Assembly: GCA_903858815.1 (NCBI GenBank)
Contig: CAIOKE010000119.1
Span: 1 to 64,000, forward strand
Length of the DNA stretch: 64,000 bases
Direction: 5' to 3'
Source of the DNA: an uncultured Planctomycetaceae bacterium
GTDB lineage: Bacteria > Planctomycetota > Planctomycetia > Planctomycetales > Planctomycetaceae
Shown: in pieces, positions 34,004 through 45,891 of the stretch
Layout of the letters: each line of letters opens with the position of its first letter
Position numbering within the stretch: position 1 is the first letter of the stretch
Notes under the pieces: model-generated
Told to the model about the DNA's origin: nothing
Databases searched by the model: none
Seen by the model: the letters and a program-made list of their open reading frames with translations, nothing else
Position numbers and translations under genes: made by a program

Positions 34004-34750
34004 ATGATGCTGGCGGAATATCGGGTGGAGACAGGCCTGTTTGCCGGGCCCGTGGAACTGCTGCTGTATCTTGTACGGCGGCAGGAAGTGGACATCTGTG
34101 GCATTTCCGTGTCCCGCATCGCCCAGGAATTTGAATCGTGGTTTGACCGGTCTGGGACGCCGGATTTCGAAGTGCTGGGGGACTTTGCCGTCGTCGGCAG
34201 TACACTTCTGGAAATCAAAAGTCGCGAGGTGCTGCCGGCTGAGGCTGATGCTGATCAGCCGGACGAGGTGGTCGAGGATTCGGACAATGATCTGGTGCGG
34301 CGCCTGATGCAGTTCCGGCGGTACAAGGAGGCTGCGAAACTGCTGGAAGATCATGCCGCTGAGTGGATGGAACGGTATCCGCGACTCAGTCGACATCGCC
34401 CGGCTGTCGCTCGCGATGCCTCTGAGGACCGGATTCGCGAAGTCGAAATCTGGGACCTGGTCAGTGCCCTTGCGCGCATCGTGCAGATCCCTGATCTGCA
34501 GAAAACCATTGCTGTACGGATGGATGAGACCCCGATGTCGGTGTTTCAGGAGCAGATTCGCGGCCGGATTGCTCAGGAAGGGCGAGTCGCGTTCAGTTCG
34601 TTCTTCAGTGGTGAAAAGAATCAGTCGCGGATCGTGGGGATCTTTCTGGCGATTCTGGAACTGGTGCGGCACGAGGGTTATCGGGCCGAGCAGCCCGTGG
34701 ATTATGACGAAATCTGGATCCTGTCACCCGTGGCGCGAGCCGGCTACTGA
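34004..34750 (+). CDS. scpA: Segregation and condensation protein A
   Basis: 248 residues. Kleisin of the SMC-ScpAB complex that organises and segregates chromosomes. Starts MMLAEYRVETGLFAGPVELLLYLVRRQEVDICGISVSRIAQEF, a typical ScpA N-terminal helix that binds the SMC neck; YKEAAKLLEDHAAEW; the C-terminal winged-helix end is RVAFSSFFSGEKNQSRIVGIFLAILELVR. The start may be ATG 34004 or 34007. smc and scpB are not in the window. Confidence 0.93.
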   Translation: MMLAEYRVETGLFAGPVELLLYLVRRQEVDICGISVSRIAQEFESWFDRSGTPDFEVLGDFAVVGSTLLEIKSREVLPAEADADQPDEVVEDSDNDLVRRLMQFRRYKEAAKLLEDHAAEWMERYPRLSRHRPAVARDASEDRIREVEIWDLVSALARIVQIPDLQKTIAVRMDETPMSVFQEQIRGRIAQEGRVAFSSFFSGEKNQSRIVGIFLAILELVRHEGYRAEQPVDYDEIWILSPVARAGY

Positions 34751-35445: not shown

Positions 35446-36594
35446 TCACCACTCCCCAATCGCTTCGCCGGTGTCGCGAGTACCGACACTGCGCCAGACG
35501 TTGAGGTCAATGCTGTCGCTGGCGAATCGTACGCTGCCGTCAGCCAGCATCACGTTCACACCACCTGTGTGCATGCTGCGGGCTGAGATGATTGCATGTT
35601 CGCCGGGAGTGTCGGCAATGGCGCTCCAGTTGCCGCAGTCCTGACCGCGCCAGTTGGGCGTGGCGACGTGGTTATACATCGTGCCTGAGTAGGCCGCAAA
35701 GGGCCAGCCGTTGGAATAGTCACTGCCCTGAGCCCAGCGTCCAAAAGTTGTGAAGTTGAAGCTGCTGGCCACTTTGGGAGCATTCAGGCAGTCGTTGTAC
35801 ATGATGTTCGGGTCGAGCATCACGTTCTGCCGGTTGGGTGATGTGATGATGTCGGCGGGGGTTGGCGGTGAGCTGGCCGCGGCTCGCGCTGAACCCTTGG
35901 TGCGTTCGGCAAACATCGCTGTGTTGGACATGCCGTCCGTGAAGTCGCGATCGGCGAGGGAACCGGCGGTGAATGCGCCATTGCCAAGGCACGAAAGAAC
36001 TCGACCACCGAAGGTGCCTGTGGCCGAGTTACTGGTCTGGGCAGCAGCATTCGCGGCACCCTGATAGGGGGTACTGCCGCCGAAGTTGTACACGTAGTTG
36101 TTTTCTGAGATGACCACGCCGGTGTTTGCATCGGAGGGGCAGAGGAACAGCCCGGCGGCCTGAGCGTAGGCCGTGTAATTCGGGTTGCTGGGTGTCCCCG
36201 AGGTGGTCATGCGGGTCGAATTCGGTCCGTTGAAATTGATCAGGTTGTAGATGTTGGCCTGTTCCATAAATGGCAGGATGAAGATGTGGACTGAGCGGTT
36301 ACCGGTCCAGATGTTGGTGGCGTTGCTGGAGTAGCTGGTGTAGCTGGCCTGTGGGACACCGCCGATCGTCAGGTCCGGCAGCAGTCGTCCGGGGGGAAAT
36401 TTTGAGTGGGTTGAGAGGTAGTTGTGCAGGCCCAGCCCAATTTGTTTCAGGTTGTTCTTGCACTGCGTGCGGCGGGCGGCTTCACGGGCCTGCTGGACCG
36501 CTGGCAGCAGAAGTGCGACGAGGATTGCGATGATCGCTATGACCACCAGCAGTTCGATCAGAGTGAACGCACGACGTCTTCCCAGTTTTCCCAT
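35446..36594 (-). CDS. DUF1559 prepilin-like protein (copy 2)
   Basis: 382 residues. Leader [18 protein letters not shown], prepilin-type helix and [28 protein letters not shown]9-[20 protein letters not shown]. The ends are FRRN-less and the protein is longer than copy 1 in the middle. Two paralogues within about 5 kb, on opposite strands. As in copy 1, likely a processed, surface-exposed prepilin-like protein of unknown role. Confidence 0.93.
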
Positions 36595-37108: not shown

Positions 37109-38785
37109 ATGGCTTTTCGATCGCAGCGATTCATTCAGGCTGCCAATCTGCGTCTGGATGTTCCGGTCAGCGTCAGTCTGGCCGAATTTCCTGACGATGC
37201 CATGCGGATGGCTCTGGAAGATGCGACATTAGTGGCATTTGACGAAGTGATTCAGCACTGTATCCGTCACGATGTGGATTTTCTGTTGCTGTCCGGGAAT
37301 GTCTTTATCGAGGCTGACCGCAGTCTGCGTGCACGGCTGGCGATTCAGCGGTGTTTTCAGCAACTTCATGACGTTGGTATTCATGTGTTTGTGCTGCCGG
37401 GTGACAGTGATCCGGCGGAAGCGTGGCGGCTGGTCCCGGATCTGCCTGACAACGTAACGATCTGTTACAGTTCCAATCCTGAACCTGAAAGTCTGGTCGA
37501 CGCGGATACTGAACTCCCGATGACGCTGGTGTCATCGGCCTTATGGATTGGTGCGGCGGACGACTTCGGAATTCAGGTGATTGCTCGTGGTGGCCAGCAG
37601 CTGCAGCCGTTTCGGATCGGCGTTGTCTCGCGATCTCGCTACGAAGAGGCGCAGCGGATGGCGGCCCTCGCGGCTTCAGCGACGGATGATGTTCTGCTGG
37701 ATCTTGCGGTCAATCCCAGCAGCGGAGAAAAGGTCACAGAGGTGCAGCCTCCAGCGGATCCTCATGCTACGCATGTGTCGGTCTGGCGTTCAGTGGAAGT
37801 CGAGCAGGGGCAGCGTCCGGCTCGCCTGCCGGAACAGACGATGCGACGTCTGCACAACAGGTCTGAGACAGGTGAGGCTGCAGCGGGTGGTCTCGATCGT
37901 GGTTTTCTCTCGTTTGCGGACGAAGTCCTGCGGGACGGCCAGCTGAATTTTCTGGCGTTGCTGGGCGAGTCAGACCGTGTGACATTATGGCGTGATCAGG
38001 GAGTAGTGCATTGTCCCGGCACAACGCAGCCACGCACACAACTGGAATCAGCATCCGGCGTCTGTTCGCTGGTGCAGGTTTCGGACCAGGGTGAGGTGAC
38101 GATTTCGCCGCTGGATACCAGCTGCATCGACTGGAAGCAGATTGAGCTGCACGTCGGGGCTCACACGGACACATCAACTCTGCTGCAGCAGATGCGCAGT
38201 CGTCTGCTTGAGGAGCGGTGTGGTGCGGCCGATCGAATCTGGTCGGTACAGTGGATTCTGCGAGGTTCGCTGCCTGTTCTGCGGATGCTGCGGGAATGCG
38301 AGTTTGACACATTGCTGTCGCTTGAGCTGGACCAGCTGCAGGCAACCGGGCGGGCTTTGCAGTTGCTGCATGATGTGCGGTATCTGCCGGATTCGTGGCC
38401 GGCCGGAAATCCGGCGGGTGGCTTACCTGATCAGTATCAGCAGCACGTGTCGCGACCGGCGATGCTGGGTGATGCTGAATTAACTCGGGTGATCGAGTCG
38501 GATCGTGAACTTTCAACAGCGTGGAAACAGCGGTTGCTGGCTGTGCTTTCTGCGTTGGATCCTGAGCAGATTCTGGCTCGCATACGCGAAGACGGTGCTG
38601 CGTGGTTCGAGCCTCGATTCGACCTGCAGGCAGCGGAGGAGGCGGAGGATCCGGAGAATGATTCTGCGGATTATTCTCCGGGGCCGACGGAAGTGACTGC
38701 TGAGGATCTGGATGCGGAACGGGAAGCTGCGGGTGAGGCAGAATCTGAAGAGTCGGAACCGGATGATGAGCGTGAGCGGGACTGA
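37109..38785 (+). CDS. SbcD/YhaO-like protein with lost metal ligands
   Basis: 558 residues from ATG 37109 (AAGGGA upstream). Alignment by eye with Mre11/SbcD-type nucleases: RFIQAANLRLD (residues 7-17) replaces FIHxADLHLD, so H, D and H become Q, N and R; LLLSGNVF (60-66) replaces the GD motif; VFVLPGDSDP (94-102) replaces GNHD; and LLGESDRVTLW (284-294) replaces GHIH. All metal-binding His/Asp positions that I can place are changed, so the nuclease is predicted inactive. The C-terminal part is a domain with many acidic residues ending in EESEPDDERERD. Forms a two-gene unit with the following SMC-like ATPase, 24 bases away. Confidence 0.8.
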   Translation: MAFRSQRFIQAANLRLDVPVSVSLAEFPDDAMRMALEDATLVAFDEVIQHCIRHDVDFLLLSGNVFIEADRSLRARLAIQRCFQQLHDVGIHVFVLPGDSDPAEAWRLVPDLPDNVTICYSSNPEPESLVDADTELPMTLVSSALWIGAADDFGIQVIARGGQQLQPFRIGVVSRSRYEEAQRMAALAASATDDVLLDLAVNPSSGEKVTEVQPPADPHATHVSVWRSVEVEQGQRPARLPEQTMRRLHNRSETGEAAAGGLDRGFLSFADEVLRDGQLNFLALLGESDRVTLWRDQGVVHCPGTTQPRTQLESASGVCSLVQVSDQGEVTISPLDTSCIDWKQIELHVGAHTDTSTLLQQMRSRLLEERCGAADRIWSVQWILRGSLPVLRMLRECEFDTLLSLELDQLQATGRALQLLHDVRYLPDSWPAGNPAGGLPDQYQQHVSRPAMLGDAELTRVIESDRELSTAWKQRLLAVLSALDPEQILARIREDGAAWFEPRFDLQAAEEAEDPENDSADYSPGPTEVTAEDLDAEREAAGEAESEESEPDDERERD

Positions 38786-38809
38786 GTATTTCCGGGAGGG
38801 GAGTGCAGC

Positions 38810-41800
38810 ATGAGGCTGACCGAGATTGATATTGATCGATTTCGCATCTGGCGCAGTCTTCTGCTGCGTCTGGATCCGCGTGGGCTGAATGTGATTTATG
38901 GCCCGAATGAAGCGGGCAAAACAACGTTGATGCGGTTCATTCGTTCGACATTGTACGGTTACGAGCCGCTGGAGACTGAGCCGGCGTGGCATCGTCCGGA
39001 TCCCAGTCAGCCGTGGCGTGGTGCGTTGCGTTGTGAGCATGGTGGACGCACGTGGCGGATTTTTCGCCGCGCTGAACTGAGTGGTCGCGGTCGACTGCGT
39101 CTGTCTGGTGGTCCTGATGGGCAGGATCGCGATGTCGCCCTCAGCGGTATTCTCTCGGAGACCTCTGAGGACGTTTATGCGGACGTCTTTGCTGTTGGTG
39201 TGCGGGAGCTGAATCAGCTCTCGACTCTGGGGACCGGCCAGGTTGCTCAGTACATCTACGGTTTGTCTCTGGGGCCGCAGGGGCGGCAGATTCTGAGTGC
39301 ACTGTCTGATCTGCGTCGTCGTGGTGACGCTTTGTTTGCGGTGGATCAGGCGGGCGGCCAGCTGCCGGAGCTGTTTGAGCAGTATGCAAAGATCGCCTCG
39401 GTGCGTCCGCAGACCGGCGCACTTCGCGATCAGCATACACGACTGACACGTCGTCGTGCGGAATTGCAGTCGGAACTTGAAGAGCTGCAGAACCGCGAGG
39501 CAGCATTAAAGAATGAGCAGCGAGGTTTGCAGCACTTGCAGCGCTGTCACAAGCCATGGAATCGGATCCGGGAGTTGAAGGATGAGCTGGCGAAGCTGCC
39601 TCTGACGACGGTGGATCCGGCGGAATCGCTGCGTCTGCTGACGACTGCGGATAAGGATGCGACAGAGGCCACTGCGCGCCGCGATCGGCTGGCTGCGGAA
39701 GCCGCATCACTGAAGACTCAGGCCGACCGTCTGCAGCTCGATGCGGCATTTGAGCGTGAGCGGCATGTGCTGCAGAGTCTGGTGGATCAGGCGGACTGGC
39801 TGCGTCAGATTGACGAGTCGATTCGAGCTGCAGAAGAGCGTGCCGGGGAACTCAAACGAGAGCTTGGACATCAGCTGACGCAGCTGGGAGAAGGCTGGAC
39901 ACTTGAGCGTCTGAGTGCAGTGGATACCAGTCCGGCTGCGCACCATCGGTTGCTGGTCATGGCACGCCGATACCAGGACGCACTGCAGCGCCGTGGTAAG
40001 CTCCGTCGCTGGACTCGCAGCATGGGCCGCCGCAGTGGACGGGAAGTCCTCGAACTGAACAAGCTGCTGGATGAACTGGGGGTGCCAGTCGATGAGGCGA
40101 TTGATCGTGAGCAGGCTCGACTGAAGGAACTGGAGAACCTCGGTCGATTGCGGTTGCAGGAAGAGCAGCTGGCACTGAAGATTCAGACGGTGCGACGGGT
40201 GCTGGATCGTGTTGATGTGGAGGAGTCGATACCGGCGTGGGTGGATCAGGCGATTTCACTGATGGGCTGGTTCGGCGTGGCATTGAGTCTGTTTGGTGTA
40301 GCGACCTACGCTGTGGGCGGCGATGCTCGACGTTCGCTGGGCGGGGCACTGGCTGCTGCCGCAATTGCGCTGGCCGGCATGTTGTGGTGGGCAGTCCGCA
40401 ATGGATTGCGAAATCACTTCGATGCCACCACGGGAGTTCGGCTGGAGGATCTGGCAGACGAGGCGCGGCAGGCGGATCGGCAGTTGCGTCTGATTCAGGA
40501 GCGGATTCAGCGGATGGCGGTGGCCGATGGCGGTCGTGAGGATGTGGCTGAGGGGGAATGGCGTTCCTCGACGGCCGAGATGGTGGATCGGATTGGTGAC
40601 TGTTCCGCGCGGATCGCAGAACTGGAAGTGCTGCAGCGCCGGCAGTTCCGTGCCGCCGCCCGACGACTGCGTTTGAAGGCTCTGCGAGATCGTTTTCGTG
40701 CTGCGCAACAGGACCTGACGCTGGTGCGGCAGGAATGGTGTCGGCTGTTGTCAGCCACGGGCATGCAGGAAACACTGCAGACGGAAGAGGCCTTTGAGTG
40801 GTGGCATCGGCTGCAGGATGTCCGCGAGCTGGCGGCACAGTGGCGCAATTCAGCCCCCGAGGTCGAGGGCTTGCGACGAATGTTCGACTCGATGCGGCAG
40901 CGAGTTGAACAGTTGGGGGGGCGGCTGAAGGGCCCCACGAAGTACGATTATTCGCGTCCGCTTGAAGTGCTGGCCAACTGGCAACAGCAATTGAAGACTC
41001 ACGATCGCGATCGTGCAGAACGTGAGCGAATGCTGACGGAATCGGAGTCGAAGCAGCGGGATTCTCAGCATGCTCAGCATCAGGCAGAGGCGGCGGAGCT
41101 GCGACGTGGTGCAGTGCTGGCTCGCGCCGGTGTCGCCACTCGCGAGGAAATCCAGAAGCAGCAGGAAACGCAGCAGCGCAGGCTGCGTTCCGAAAAAGAT
41201 CTGAAGGTCGCTGCTGACGATCTGCTGGAAGCCGGTCGTCAGGAGACTGAACTGGCCATTGTGGAGGAAGATTTGCTGCGATTTGATGCGCAGCGGACAC
41301 GTGAACGCCTGCAGTTACTGCAGGCTGAGGTGCAGGATGTTGAACAGGGATTGCGAAAACGACATGAAGAACTGGGCAGCCTGCGACAGGAAATACGGCT
41401 GCTTGAATCACGCCGTGACTCGCATGCCGAATTCTTCCGTCGTTCCCGACTGGCGACTGACATTTATCGAGCGGTGGAAGAATGGTTGGCGCTGCAGTTT
41501 GAGCATGATGCTGTGCTGCAGATGCGGAAGAAATTCGAGCAGGAAAACATCTCGGGCACACTGGTGGCGGCCTCCGGCTACATGCACCGCATGACGGCCG
41601 GTCGCTACCATCGAATCTGGGCGCCCCTGGGCGAAGATTACCTGTGCATCGATGACGAATTCGGTCAGACGTTTCGTGTGGAACAGCTCAGCGGAGGGAC
41701 TCGCGAGCAGCTGTTCCTTGCGATTCGTTTTGCGCTGGTCCGCGAGTTCGCGCGACGAGGTATCGAACTGCCGCTGATTATGGATGACCTGTTCGTCAAT

Positions 41801-42037
41801 TTCGATCAGGAGCGAACTGAGGCAGCTGCCGATTGTCTGATTGAGGTCGCTCGAGAAGGCCAGCAGGTGCTGTTCTTCACATGTCATGAACACATCGCCG
41901 GTATGTTTCAGCGAAAGCAGGTTGAGCCTCTGTGGCTGCCCGGGCATCGCGTGGCGTTTGATGCCATGAAGCCGGAAGCCGAGGGGCAGGATGAGACGGG
42001 ATTCATGGCCAATTCGGATGAATTACTGGACAGCTGA
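38810..42037 (+). CDS. SbcC/YhaN-like SMC ATPase with membrane segments
   Basis: 1075 residues. Walker A VIYGPNEAGKTTL (GPNEAGKT at 31-38), signature LSGGTREQLFLAIRFAL near 959, Walker B LPLIMDDLFVNFD near 986, so an ABC-type SMC head split by long coiled coils (Glu/Arg/Gln/Leu-rich, about 180-900). At about residues 477-535, two hydrophobic segments (WFGVALSLFGVATYAVGG, GALAAAAIALAGMLWWAV) interrupt the coil, suggesting membrane insertion. YhaN-type ATPases similarly carry hydrophobic segments and pair with YhaO-like nucleases. GGGAGGGGAG precedes the start; only 24 bases separate it from the SbcD-like gene. Probably one complex. Confidence 0.85.
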   Translation: MRLTEIDIDRFRIWRSLLLRLDPRGLNVIYGPNEAGKTTLMRFIRSTLYGYEPLETEPAWHRPDPSQPWRGALRCEHGGRTWRIFRRAELSGRGRLRLSGGPDGQDRDVALSGILSETSEDVYADVFAVGVRELNQLSTLGTGQVAQYIYGLSLGPQGRQILSALSDLRRRGDALFAVDQAGGQLPELFEQYAKIASVRPQTGALRDQHTRLTRRRAELQSELEELQNREAALKNEQRGLQHLQRCHKPWNRIRELKDELAKLPLTTVDPAESLRLLTTADKDATEATARRDRLAAEAASLKTQADRLQLDAAFERERHVLQSLVDQADWLRQIDESIRAAEERAGELKRELGHQLTQLGEGWTLERLSAVDTSPAAHHRLLVMARRYQDALQRRGKLRRWTRSMGRRSGREVLELNKLLDELGVPVDEAIDREQARLKELENLGRLRLQEEQLALKIQTVRRVLDRVDVEESIPAWVDQAISLMGWFGVALSLFGVATYAVGGDARRSLGGALAAAAIALAGMLWWAVRNGLRNHFDATTGVRLEDLADEARQADRQLRLIQERIQRMAVADGGREDVAEGEWRSSTAEMVDRIGDCSARIAELEVLQRRQFRAAARRLRLKALRDRFRAAQQDLTLVRQEWCRLLSATGMQETLQTEEAFEWWHRLQDVRELAAQWRNSAPEVEGLRRMFDSMRQRVEQLGGRLKGPTKYDYSRPLEVLANWQQQLKTHDRDRAERERMLTESESKQRDSQHAQHQAEAAELRRGAVLARAGVATREEIQKQQETQQRRLRSEKDLKVAADDLLEAGRQETELAIVEEDLLRFDAQRTRERLQLLQAEVQDVEQGLRKRHEELGSLRQEIRLLESRRDSHAEFFRRSRLATDIYRAVEEWLALQFEHDAVLQMRKKFEQENISGTLVAASGYMHRMTAGRYHRIWAPLGEDYLCIDDEFGQTFRVEQLSGGTREQLFLAIRFALVREFARRGIELPLIMDDLFVNFDQERTEAAADCLIEVAREGQQVLFFTCHEHIAGMFQRKQVEPLWLPGHRVAFDAMKPEAEGQDETGFMANSDELLDS

Positions 42038-42051
42038 CGTCAACGGATGAA

Positions 42052-43488
42052 TCAGCCCGTAAGGATTTCATGGATCACACGACCATGGACGTCCGTCAGG
42101 CGACGGTCAATCCCTGAATTACGGAACGTCAGCTGCCGGTGATCAATTCCCATCAGGTGCAGGATCGTTGCATGCAGGTCGTAACCCCATGTGCGATCTT
42201 CTGCCGTCTGCCACGCCAGATCGTCACTGCGTCCGAAATTTGTGCCCTTGCGAATGCCGGCACCCGCCAGCCACGTGACGAAAGTGCCACTGTTGTGGTC
42301 TCGTCCGAGTGAACCCTGGGCGAAGGGAGTGCGCCCGAATTCTGTTGTCCAGATCAGCAGCGTGTCCTCGAACAGGCCACGCTGTTTGAGATCGGTCAGC
42401 AGCGCTGCGATCGGTTGATCCACGCTGAGAGCCATCGGGGGCAGCTCAGTCTGGATGTTGCCGTGATTATCCCAGTTGTTCACCGCTCCCTGCGGACCGC
42501 TCCAGACCTGTACGAAGCGGGTGCCCCGTTCAATCAGCCGACGAGCCAGCAGACAACGCTGGCCGAAATCCCGCGTTTCCTGACGATCCATTCCATAGGC
42601 CTGCTGCATCGATGCAGATTCTGCTGTCAGATCAAAGGCCTCCGGAGCACTCAACTGCATGGCTGCTGCAAGTTCCGCTGCGGCAATGCGAGCCGCAAAT
42701 CGGCTGTCACTTTCACGCTGCGCTGCATGCCGCCGATTGAGCTGCTGCAGGGCGTCAAAGGTCGCTTTGTCGGCAGCTCCCTGAGCAAAGCCAAATCGCG
42801 CCTCGGCCTGCAGGTCGGGGATCGGTGGACTGACCGATGCGTCGACGATCGTGCCCTGATGATTGGACGGCAGAAATCCGGCACTGAAGTTCCCCTTCTG
42901 ATTGTACGGCAGGCCTCGAGGATCCGGCAGTACGATGAATGATGGCAGGTTGCGAGACAGACTGCCGAGCCCGTAGGAGACCCACGCGCCAAAGCAGGGA
43001 AAACCAGGCAGCGTGAAACCGGTACACGCAAGATAACTGGCCGGACCGTGCACGTTGGTTCGACCAGTCATTGCCATCAGAAACGCCGGCTCGTCGATCA
43101 CCTTCGCCTGATGCGGGAACAGCTCACTGACCCATCGACCCGTCTCGCCATGCTGAGCAAACCGGAATGGGCTTTTCATCACCGCGCCGGCAGGAGCAGT
43201 AAACCCCTCCGGTTTCTCCTTAGGCCCAATCATCTGACCGTGCAGACGTTCAAGCTCAGGCTTGTAGTCAAACAGGTCCATCGGGCTGGCTCCGCCCGTC
43301 ATGAACAGCTGGATCACGCGACGAACTTTGGCCGGATGATGCAGTCCCGGTTTCGGGGGGGACAGTGAGGACTCGTCGGCAGCCAGCAGGTCAACCAGAG
43401 CCGTGAGTCCGAGTCCTCCACCGCACTCCGCCAGCAGAGACCGGCGGTGCAGAGGGACAGAACGATCGGAGCGTTCGAGTGATTGCAT
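42052..43488 (-). CDS. DUF1501 protein (sulfatase-like fold)
   Basis: 478 residues from ATG 43488 (MQSLERSDRSVPLHRRSLL); the frame extends upstream to 43803 without family similarity. Twin-arginine-like PLHRRSLLAECGGGLGLTAL suggests Tat or Sec export. Family signature: VRRVIQLFMTGGASPMDLFDYKPEL, GKSPFRFAQHGE-like MKSPFRFAQHGETGRWVSELFPHQAKV, PSYLACTGF and a C-terminal NWDNHGNIQTELPPMALSVDQPIAALLTDLKQRGL followed by FGRTPFAQGSLGRDHN. The NWDNHG and GRDHN His residues are characteristic. DUF1501 proteins are often paired with DUF1553-type cytochromes elsewhere; here no partner is adjacent. Confidence 0.9.
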   Translation of the reverse strand: MQSLERSDRSVPLHRRSLLAECGGGLGLTALVDLLAADESSLSPPKPGLHHPAKVRRVIQLFMTGGASPMDLFDYKPELERLHGQMIGPKEKPEGFTAPAGAVMKSPFRFAQHGETGRWVSELFPHQAKVIDEPAFLMAMTGRTNVHGPASYLACTGFTLPGFPCFGAWVSYGLGSLSRNLPSFIVLPDPRGLPYNQKGNFSAGFLPSNHQGTIVDASVSPPIPDLQAEARFGFAQGAADKATFDALQQLNRRHAAQRESDSRFAARIAAAELAAAMQLSAPEAFDLTAESASMQQAYGMDRQETRDFGQRCLLARRLIERGTRFVQVWSGPQGAVNNWDNHGNIQTELPPMALSVDQPIAALLTDLKQRGLFEDTLLIWTTEFGRTPFAQGSLGRDHNSGTFVTWLAGAGIRKGTNFGRSDDLAWQTAEDRTWGYDLHATILHLMGIDHRQLTFRNSGIDRRLTDVHGRVIHEILTG

Positions 43489-43904
43489 GGTAACAAAGCT
43501 GTAAGGATGGAACACCGGCAGTAACTGGCGGGCACTCAGCCCCCTGCGACCACGGGAATCAAACACATGAAGCAGGGTGGGTGTGCGATGGACCGTGGGG
43601 GAGTGAATCGAATGTTGGAGAGCAGCACGAGAGCACGTGATTGACCACCAGACAACCCAGCGTTGCCGGGAAATCTGCAAACCCGGATTACACAGTGGCT
43701 GCACACCGAATGCAAGTGCTCTGCAACGGACCCGATTCTGTTTGAGGAGTGCGTTTGCTGGTGGAGTATGCGTGATGCTGGGAGGGTGGGCACTCCGCTG
43801 CAAAACCAGACTCTACGTAAAATGAAGTGTCCGGTGTTCTTGTGGCGTTCGAGTGTTGGCGATGTTTCTGCCCAGGCAGGACACGAAAAGCGGTTTTCAG
43901 TGGT

Positions 43905-45820
43905 CAGTGGTGCACATTTGCTGGGGACACATTTGCTGGGGACACACGACGCGGCGACCCTCAGACAGACAGGCCGGCGCGATTTGATGATTCTGCTGCG
44001 ACGCTGATCCAGGGACTGGCTCGGTCCGAGGTATCGCGGTGCTTTGTGGTGGGGCTGGTTGTACTGAGTTTGCCGCGGTGTTTGTTTTTGGGGACATGAG
44101 CAGAGGTCTGAACATTGGATGGCCCCGGGGCTTGGTCACACTCCGCAAAGTGTCATTGTGCTGTGTCCCCCAGTCTGCCGACGGCCCGCTGGGACGGACT
44201 CAAGAGTGGTGTGTCCCCAACTGCTCCTGGCGCGGCTTTACGCCATTTCGTGGCGGCTCCTTGAACGCTCCTGCTGAATCGGAGTGTCCCCAGGGCAGTC
44301 CACCAGGGCAGTCCAAGTGATGTGTCCCCGCGTCGAGAGACGCCATCTTGTCGATTGAGTGAACAAACAGGTGAACAAAGGATGGCCCCGGAGGATGGCC
44401 CCACCAGGTAGCGCCCGATTGTGCTGTGTCCCCCATTGGTGTGTCCACGCTGGACGCAATTGCAAGACGGCCCCCTGAACGCCCACCTGACTGGGTGTGT
44501 CCCCGTATGCTCAAGGTTCCCCAATTGCTGCAGTTGCTTGCGGGCTAAGTGAACAATTCAGTGAACAAAGGATGGCCCCGGGGGATGGCCACATCTGGCG
44601 TTGCCCGCTAGTGCTATGCTCCCCCGTCGCAGATGGCCCTCCGGTACGGGCTCACAAAGTGGTGTGTCCCCGCTTGGCCCCCCGCGTTGAGAGACGCCAT
44701 CTTGTCGATTGAGTGAACAAACAGGTGAACAAAGGATGGCCCCGGAGGATGGCCCCATCTGGCATCGCTCGATTGTGGTGTGTCCCCGTGTGATCCAGGT
44801 TCCCCAACTGCTGCAGTTACTTGTGGGCTAAGTGAACAAATCGGTGAACAAAGGATGGCCCGGGGGATGGCCACATCTGGCGTTGCCCGGTGATGCGATG
44901 CTCCCCCCCTCCGTCGCAGATGGCCCGCCGGGACGGGCTCACAAAGTGGTGTGTCCCCGCTTGGCCCCCCGCTTGGCCTCCCAACTGACTGGGTGTGTCC
45001 CCGTGTGCCCTAGGTTCCCCAATTGCTGCAGTTGCTTGCGGGCTAAGTGAACAATTCAGTGAACAAAGGATGGCCCCGGGGGATGGCCACATCTGGCGTT
45101 GCCCGCTAGTGCTATGCTCCCCCGTCGCAGATGGCCCTCCGGTACGGGTTCACAAACGTGGTGTGTCCCCGCTTGGCCCCCCCCCCCGCGTTGAGAGACG
45201 CCACCGCGTTGATTGAGTGAACAAACAGGTGAACATAGGATGGCCCCGGAGGATGGCCCCATGTGATGGCGCTCGGACCTGCCGTGTCCCGCGGTCTGCC
45301 GACCGTCTGCCGACCGTCTGCCGACGGCCCGCTGGGACGGGCTCAAGAGTGGTGTGTCCCCAACTGCTCCAACTGCTCCAACTGCTTGCTTACTAAGTGA
45401 ACAAATTAGTGAACAAAGGATGGCCCCGGGGGACGGCCACATCAGGGGTTGCCCGGTTATGCGATGCCCCCCCCCGTCGCAGATGGCCCTCCGGTACGGG
45501 CTCAGAAAGTGGTGTGTCCCCGCTTGGCCCAGAAAGTGGTGTGTCCCCGCTTGGCCCAGAAAGTGGTGTGTCCCCGCTTGGCCCAGAAAGTAGTGTGTCC
45601 CCGCTTGGCCCCCGCTTGGCCCCTGTCCCCGCTTGGCCCCCCATTGGATGGCCCCAACAGGTGGTCCCAAGGTACGCCAACTGATGCCAACTGAATATGC
45701 TGTGTCCCCCACTCTAAAGAATATGCTGTGTCCCTCCGACTGCTTGAACCGCCCAATGCGGTGTGTCCCCGCTTGAACCGCCCGGCCCCGCCCGGCACCC
45801 GTGGGCTCAATCTGCCGAGG
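43905..45820. repeat. GTGTCCCC/GTGAACAA higher-order repeat
   Basis: The octamer GTGTCCCC occurs 18 times by my count on the + strand from 44163 to 45770, and its complement GGGGACAC occurs twice at the left end (43923-43955), in opposite orientation. Seven GTGAACAA doublets (44359, 44549, 44713, 44832, 45047, 45217, 45397), each with second copy 12 bases on, head modules followed by GGATGGCCCCGGRGGATGGCC. Modules of type A (44549-44712, 44832-45046, 45047-45216, 45397-) and type B (44359-44548, 44713-44831, 45217-45396) partly alternate. C-rich runs are common. No transposase, RNA or promoter family is recognised. Confidence 0.9.
45504..45611 (+). repeat. Four tandem 27-bp units
   Basis: AGAAAGT(G/A)GTGTGTCCCCGC then TTGGCCC, repeated at 45504, 45531, 45558 and 45585 with one change. 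Nested within the larger repeat; each unit contains one GTGTCCCC. Confidence 0.9.
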
Positions 45821-45891
45821 TGGTGGATCGGCAGCAAATGCTTCTTTGCGGGGTAACTGTCGGAATCGTTAAGGTCGGTGTGACCGTGAAG

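Follow-up and report, generated by a model that had tools for sequence, protein, structure and literature searches.

In the Mre11-Rad50 complex, Mre11 bridges the Rad50 heads, ATP opens and closes these heads on DNA, and the apices of Rad50 normally dimerise. A related arrangement, YhaO-YhaN, is found in the Bacillota as a pair formed by an SbcD-like protein and an SMC-like ATPase. YhaN is the same protein as SbcE, according to a reference title in PMC3896406, and SbcEF has been implicated in double-strand break repair in a role that PMC6452273 calls poorly characterised. Here we describe a planctomycete pair of this general type in which the SbcD-like partner keeps none of the eight residues scored at its catalytic site. 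The two genes lie in a stretch of 64,000 nucleotides from an uncultured Planctomycetaceae bacterium (contig CAIOKE010000119.1, positions 1 to 64,000), hereafter referred to as the window, and are arranged as follows:

37109 to 38785, forward strand: SbcD-like gene, a degenerate YhaO/SbcD/Mre11-like putative pseudonuclease; open reading frame with an ATG start, 558 amino acids
38794 to 38803, forward strand: ribosome-binding-like sequence GGGAGGGGAG ahead of the ATPase start, inside the 24-base intergenic gap
38810 to 42037, forward strand: ATPase gene (YhaN/SbcE/Rad50-type ABC ATPase); open reading frame with an ATG start, 1075 amino acids, two head halves joined via a long coiled coil

The genes share a strand and are 24 bases apart, and a purine-rich ribosome-binding-like stretch stands upstream of the start of each. 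Pairing with an SMC-like ATPase gene is as expected for Mre11/SbcD/YhaO nucleases, and in 41 of 42 loci (the window itself counted among them) it is followed by the ATPase gene on its own strand, the sole exception being L046, where the contig ends. From this gene order we infer that the two proteins may form a complex. The likeness to YhaO-YhaN (SbcEF) consists of the pairing and of the match of the ATPase to AAA_27 (PF13514; 45.1 bits, Pfam cut-off 22); the difference is that the YhaO-like partner in the window keeps 0/8 residues. When compared with SbcCD and Mre11-Rad50, the pair has ATPase head motifs and a predicted nuclease and capping fold in common, but it lacks the metal ligands and the CxxC hook and carries a hydrophobic apex instead. 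Intact YhaO-YhaN pairs of the same phylum (for example L103, L105 and L117 to L120) resemble it in gene order and family and differ in keeping all eight residues.

Metal site and fold of the SbcD-like protein

In metallophosphoesterases, the first metal is bound by the Asp and His of motif I, the Asp of motif II and the last His of GHxH, and the second by the motif II Asp, the GNHD Asn, an LLH-type His and the first His of GHxH. We scored eight positions, namely these seven ligands (D, H, D, N, H, H, H) and the catalytic His, taking intact YhaO proteins and E. coli SbcD as the reference. The homologous PolD DP1 has the same seven ligand residue types, conserved with P. furiosus Mre11, and the Mre11 His is described as essential in PMC4996933. 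E. coli SbcD has all eight residues, and so does the canonical SbcD from the window's own genome. Where these have D H D N H H H H, the residues of the window protein are N R N D S S G S, and none of the eight is kept. More specifically, the motifs read:

37136 to 37159, forward strand: motif I, QAANLRLD (canonical HxADxHLD; aligned to HAADIHLD by MAFFT and hhalign); Asp replaced by Asn, His by Arg
37295 to 37300, forward strand: motif II, GN (canonical GD; SGNVF aligned to AGDLY in the alignments and by hhalign); bridging Asp replaced by Asn
37400 to 37411, forward strand: motif III, GDSD (canonical GNHD; PGDSDP aligned to SGNHDA in the alignments and by hhalign); Asn replaced by Asp, catalytic His by Ser
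37961 to 37972, forward strand: motif V, LGES (canonical GHxH; ALLGESDR aligned to ALGHVHTR in the alignment and by hhalign); both His gone

The fourth His position (LLH) is also lost. The original prediction, made from the DNA letters, had held that the protein is related to Mre11/SbcD/YhaO and that every visible metal ligand is gone. Both statements hold, and its readings QAANLR, GN and GDSD are correct; at the GHxH position the aligned residues are LGES, one residue to the left of the GESD that it had named, and the His is lost either way, as this shift of register rescues none. Misalignment was ruled out as the source of the loss by the agreement of MAFFT, phmmer (motifs II and III) and hhalign (all motifs gap-free).

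Searched as a single sequence, the SbcD-like protein matches TIGR00619 with an E-value of 6.6e-5, far below the family cut-off, and E. coli SbcD in the Protein Data Bank with an E-value of 0.042; no Pfam family match was found in such a search. Global hhalign of a 37-homologue profile against fully intact YhaO/SbcD proteins gives an E-value of 2e-66 over 414 columns, with the motifs free of gaps. An AlphaFold2 model built from a 37-row alignment (predicted local distance difference test, pLDDT, 80.9; predicted template-modelling score, pTM, 0.77) comprises two parts:

Model residues 3 to 429 of the SbcD-like protein: nuclease-fold and capping domains (AlphaFold2, VIA)
Residues 439 to 512 of the SbcD-like protein: C-terminal helices, then an acidic tail (AlphaFold2 model)

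The top Foldseek matches of this model are Mre11/SbcD (7yzo, E 1.9e-10). Superposition with VIA gives Z 21.6 to S. pombe Mre11 (4fbw; 311 residues, root-mean-square deviation 5.8) and Z 20.5 to Mn-bound E. coli SbcD (4m0v; 288 residues, deviation 5.1). Mre11 and SbcD chains as a group reach Z 18 to 21.6, mostly over residues 3 to 429 and covering both the nuclease and the capping domain, and the remaining phosphoesterases reach Z 16.4 at most. A single SbcD chain (7yzp) aligns through the C-terminal part out to residue 523, but the sequence match there is poor. Structure prediction and superposition agree with the alignments, and the protein is predicted to have the Mre11/SbcD nuclease and capping fold.

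A fold of this kind that has ceased to cut has a precedent, as PMC4996933 describes the B-subunit of eukaryotic DNA polymerases as a calcineurin-like phosphodiesterase fold that was inactivated and converted to a scaffold. The window protein would resemble the B-subunits of DNA polymerases alpha and delta in being an inactivated fold used as a scaffold, and chains of polymerases zeta and delta superpose on its model at Z of about 14. The differences are that its partner is an SMC-like ATPase and not a polymerase, and that the inactivation is a separate one. No oligonucleotide/oligosaccharide-binding domain was identified in the window protein, although none was specifically sought, and weak matches to DNA_pol_E_B occur in 6 of the 37 rows of a core set (A1), the window protein not being among them.

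Distribution, phylogeny and order of loss

From 120 collected stretches, two of which were 100-base fillers, a total of 118 SbcD-like rows were scored, with the canonical SbcD of the window's own genome and E. coli SbcD among them. Rows keeping at most five of the eight positions were called degenerate (71 rows) and those keeping seven or eight intact (47 rows); the GNHD Asn is kept in 0/71 of the former vs 47/47 of the latter. Every one of the 27 rows that come from the phylum's other classes is intact, compared with 10 of 37 from other families of the window's class (27 degenerate) and 8 of 52 from the window's family (44 degenerate), proportions that are no census since the class and phylum loci were hand-picked from match tables, with stronger matches and a spread of families favoured. 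L060, which retains the motif I and II Asp and not the GNHD or GHxH residues, was excluded from A1 and later counts on account of its unclear start; L046 and L047 are one gene split by contig ends, and L031 and L032 were excluded as near-copies. The two nearest named relatives of the window protein are planctomycete metagenome-assembled genomes at 82-84% protein identity, and one scan of genome contigs yielded these two alone; the family, class and phylum sampled here are presumed to be planctomycete groups. Of 150 genomes sampled from the family, 139 have a match at an E-value of 1e-3 or better, although the weakest may be other YhaO copies.

Degeneration of a single species was ruled out, the loss being common to many relatives. 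As read from the aligned rows, degeneracy is a property of a lineage: it extends over an entire paralogue, in the window's family as well as in further families of the class, and varies in degree. The alignment with homologues shows the ligand loss to be conserved across the 71 degenerate rows, and homologues with intact motifs, which the original prediction had named as evidence that would count against it, occur in other YhaO clades only (the 47 intact rows), with none inside the degenerate clade as sampled. Degenerate and intact copies were both scored within one genome in seven cases (G040, G018, G042, G265, G345, G527 and G542). In a second stretch of G042 (L212), an intact YhaO-like gene has no ATPase match in the approximately 6 kb downstream. 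The window's own genome has a separate canonical SbcD (193 bits, above the curated cut-off), and canonical SbcD is present in 12 of 13 sampled genomes of the genus, this one counted. A close relative of the intact YhaO of L103, whose pair has no hairpin of the kind described below, occurs at an E-value of 1e-20 or better in 63 of 150 family genomes, its ligands mostly unread; at the same threshold it was not found in the window's genome or in the ten other sampled genomes of the genus.

Trees of the SbcD-like proteins were computed with the ligand columns removed. One change between the intact and degenerate states suffices, and the degenerate rows form one clade, with support of 97 and 91 (Shimodaira-Hasegawa-like approximate likelihood ratio test) in two quick trees, one of which omits L109 and L110 and the other 11 rows (near-copies and those two). 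With SbcD as the root, the intact YhaO clade is the sister group of the degenerate clade, and the outgroups too consist of intact sequences. Thus, the ligand loss is the derived state. A quick tree of ATPase heads, computed from the different protein on 50 chosen rows, gives the same split between intact and degenerate with support of 98; both this set and the 55 of 118 rows used for a more careful SbcD-like tree were hand-picked, with long branches mostly excluded. A single origin of the degenerate lineage is favoured, not proved, by these trees, and in the sampled rows the degenerate clade appears confined to the window's class.

The extent of the loss differs within the lineage. In the 34 degenerate rows that fall outside A1, first-site residues (the bridging Asp uncounted) are retained in 60 of 102 cells vs 9 of 102 for second-site residues, and the whole first-metal set is kept in 13 rows vs none for the whole second-metal set. 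These rows share ancestry, and a Fisher value is therefore no fair probability. In the A1 core, neither the first-metal set nor the second is kept in any of the 37 rows, the catalytic His is kept in three and the first GHxH His in none. As far as sequences can indicate, this suggests an ordered loss from two-metal via one-metal to no-metal forms, with apparent one-metal relatives including L202 and L207. We also note that two otherwise intact YhaO-like proteins, L131 and L134, have the catalytic His of GNHD replaced (by E and A, respectively), possibly the start of a separate loss.

The same counts bear on whether the window protein is a divergent enzyme with an altered site, built for example on N13, D99, E287 or D289, or employing another metal. 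The replacement residues at four positions (N, R, N, D) are identical in 14 of 14 close rows of the window's subclade, and one-metal chemistry would be possible for the 13 rows outside the core that retain a complete one-metal set. However, an Arg stands in place of the motif I His, the core rows have lost the first-metal set, the first GHxH His and, in all but three, the catalytic His, and the replacements at ligand positions differ widely among genera of the same family. We consider an altered but active site quite unlikely, and the nuclease activity of the window protein has probably been lost. An Arg-Asp pair (R15 and D99) filling the metal site is not claimed, as the partner is not conserved together with the Arg outside the close subclade.

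Both genes are under purifying selection. For the SbcD-like gene, the ratio of nonsynonymous to synonymous substitution rates (dN/dS) comes to 0.094 and 0.101 when the window is compared with its two nearest relatives (L031 and L032), 0.086 between these two, and 0.121 for L035 vs L036; for the window vs L034 and L035 it is 0.172 and 0.132 with synonymous sites near saturation, and the comparison with L036 is saturated. The ATPase gives 0.067 and 0.068 against L031 and L032 (partial genes on those contigs), 0.056 for L035 vs L036, and 0.12 and 0.09 for the window vs L034 and L035. The loss of all catalytic positions and the long branches of some highly divergent relatives might be taken as signs of a decaying pseudogene pair, but such decay is hardly credible given these low ratios, the matches in 139 of 150 family genomes and the retained ATPase motifs. 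The aligned relatives were chosen as open frames, and openness alone proves nothing against a pseudogene.

The ATPase and its hydrophobic apex

In the AlphaFold2 model of the ATPase (pLDDT 81.1), long helices accompany the two halves of the head. Foldseek ranks SMC and Rad50 proteins highest among the matches of this model and also lists chains of Wadjet and Lamassu. The head motifs, rightly described as intact in the original prediction, and a hydrophobic hairpin absent from that account are located as follows:

38900 to 38923, forward strand: Walker A, GPNEAGKT (sequence alignment)
40250 to 40396, forward strand: hydrophobic hairpin at the coiled-coil tip, residues approximately 481 to 529, replacing a CxxC zinc hook (Kyte-Doolittle peaks of 1.73 and 1.76)
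41687 to 41710, forward strand: ABC signature, LSGGTREQ (sequence alignment)
41771 to 41788, forward strand: Walker B, PLIMDD (sequence alignment)

The H-loop is retained in the window ATPase as well. An ATPase partner frame is present for all 71 degenerate rows, and Walker A is found in every one of these partners; those complete ATPases of the hairpin type that were read in alignments also keep the signature, Walker B and the H-loop. A crude motif pattern missed the signature in 13/71 rows, Walker B in 6/71 and the H-loop in 7/71. Alignment of twelve such rows recovered signature and Walker B in 12/12, with the H-loop His absent in L104, L107, L109 and L110; the ATPases of L059, L064 and L068 are cut off by contig ends. 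In L104, L107, L109 and L110, the H-loop His is replaced by Q or R and Walker B reads DE. These four represent a further degenerate YhaO-like side lineage in genomes of the window's family.

The hairpin is formed by two adjacent hydrophobic spans, at the point where helices 476-501 and 506-572 of the model meet. No CxxC zinc hook was found in the central part of the window ATPase; E. coli SbcC has CPLC. A hairpin was called where the 19-residue Kyte-Doolittle mean was at least 1.5, away from both ends, in a partner of at least 880 amino acids. By this measure it is present in 67 of 71 degenerate rows vs 8 of 38 intact rows with a full partner, nine intact rows having no partner of at least 880 amino acids. 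All eight of the intact rows with a hairpin come from outside the window's class, and inside the class the count is 0 of 17 intact rows with a full partner. Within the window's class, the hairpin lineage is the lineage that lost its metal sites; hairpin and intact nuclease occur together elsewhere in the phylum, as in the intact pairs L118 to L120 and with the split ATPase of L117. This last ATPase (L117, 2842-7000) lies in two frames of 818 and 627 amino acids, which may reflect a frameshift, an assembly error or a true split.

It is possible to read the hairpin as an apex-apex dimer contact that replaces the zinc hook, which would make the complex a soluble, non-cutting DNA bridge. The window hairpin is only moderately hydrophobic and has a charged turn (GGDARRS), and Rad50 apices are normally the site of dimerisation. 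Against this, many homologues have adjacent spans of approximately 20 residues with peaks of 2.0-2.8, and a surface-shaving study gives the predicted location of Staphylococcus haemolyticus YhaN as 'Membrane (SPI)' (PMC7137321). We regard a soluble bridge as unlikely, and insertion of the hairpin in a membrane as the more probable arrangement.

A link to anti-phage defence of the Lamassu/SMC-like type was also weighed. Among the PADLOC models, the ATPase matches LmuB best (E 3.3e-14), and a Lamassu chain (E 2.3e-5) stands with Wadjet among the Foldseek matches of its model. However, the best LmuB match covers one stretch at the P-loop (residues 19-50), a second LmuB model covers three stretches (best 22-44), and the SbcD-like protein has no PADLOC match. 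The pair is also widespread in the family, with no defence-like cluster among the neighbours common to at least three loci, and we consider a defence system highly improbable.

Genome context and proposed role

The pair is flanked by a DUF1559 gene with a pilin-like N terminus (35446-36594, reverse strand) and a DUF1501 gene (42052-43803, reverse strand). Both families are common in planctomycetes, and DUF1501-like genes, read by eye, cluster near six loci of the window's family at varying positions. ScpA, the kleisin partner of SMC, is encoded 2.4 kb upstream of the pair (34004-34750, forward strand; PF02616, E 6.4e-22), and no shared ScpA cluster was found among the neighbours of relatives. 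A repeat-rich stretch at 44150-45840 contains several repetitive, probably non-coding frames and a 27-base tandem repeat (45499-45611; 4.2 copies, 97% matches). A fixed operon with a third gene was rejected, as no neighbour cluster found in the window's family points to a function; the flanks compared differ in length. A CinA-type gene lies downstream on the opposite strand, 17-70 bases from the end of the ATPase frame, in three loci of the window's family, L054, L055 and L065 (confirmed by Pfam in L065). A gene for a PcrA/UvrD-type helicase occurs close to 7 of 70 degenerate loci, all seven outside the window's family, vs 0 of 44 intact ones. In L181, L183, L197 and L202 it is the immediate upstream neighbour on the same strand; in L184 it stands 1.7 kb upstream, and L111 and L204 have it on the other side. 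The helicase family was profile-tested for L181, L202 and L111 alone, all of which fall under the curated cut-offs, and no helicase match of this type was found within the 64 kb window. These helicase and CinA-type neighbours are hints of DNA work only.

Building on what was computed directly (the fold, the lost ligands, the conserved pairing of the genes, the intact motifs of the ATPase, the purifying selection and the hydrophobic hairpin), we think it rather likely that the pair is a YhaN/SbcE-type DNA clamp, probably membrane-tethered, whose YhaO subunit became a non-catalytic scaffold beside a separate intact SbcD. The ATPase would dimerise via its ATP-bound heads and open and close around DNA as Rad50 and SMC proteins do. 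The pseudo-YhaO may bridge these heads, help to hold the DNA and set the conformation of the heads, in a geometry presumably like that of the related complexes; having lost the catalytic His and both metal sites, it would no longer be able to cut. The hydrophobic hairpin, at the end of the coiled coil that faces away from the heads, could anchor the arms in the membrane or join them to a second apex. Overall, the pair would serve not as a nuclease but as a DNA sensor or as an ATP-gated tether between DNA and membrane, presumably tethering DNA.

Several observations weigh against this proposal. The pairing of the SbcD-like protein with the ATPase is based on gene order, the ATPase model has a pTM of 0.41, and the query-normalised Foldseek TM-scores of the SbcD-like model are modest (0.31-0.39 among the 50 matches listed). 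The C-terminal helices of the SbcD-like protein are candidate Rad50-binding helices, with a poor sequence match in that region. The window hairpin is among the weaker ones (1.76) and has two Arg in its turn, and four degenerate rows (L104, L107, L109 and L110) lack a hairpin partner and have lost the H-loop His as well. The careful SbcD-like tree backs a single clade just moderately (85/76; 84% of bootstrap trees), and no conserved neighbour pointing to a function was found in the window's family among clusters common to at least three loci.

The original prediction had favoured a tethering, sensing or regulatory complex over a nuclease. A conserved pseudonuclease under purifying selection next to an ATPase with intact motifs does point to a tethering, scaffold or regulatory role; what does not stand is the impression of an oddity of a single protein. 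More tentatively, we propose that an old lineage in the window's class gave up cutting in order, the second metal site and catalytic His first and the first metal site later, and could now act as an ATP-gated clamp on DNA or sensor of it, anchored in the membrane and kept alongside active SbcCD and, in some genomes, alongside an intact, hairpin-less YhaO-YhaN. The family is described in none of the literature matches listed, from searches whose coverage excludes most subscription papers, in keeping with the remark in the original prediction that no such pair had been seen described.

The share of cutting as against tethering and signalling in Mre11-Rad50 function is a long-standing question, usually probed with engineered nuclease-dead mutants. 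The planctomycete pair appears to offer a natural lineage in which the nuclease site is long gone and the pair is still selected, with apparent one-metal intermediates alive, intact relatives in sister groups, and degenerate and intact versions sometimes within one genome. If the proposal is true, the lineage would be a bacterial counterpart of the B-subunits of eukaryotic polymerases, and in it the architectural role of Mre11 would have been evolutionarily separated from the nuclease. Should the hairpin prove to be a membrane anchor, the pair would be a candidate DNA-to-membrane link in planctomycetes.

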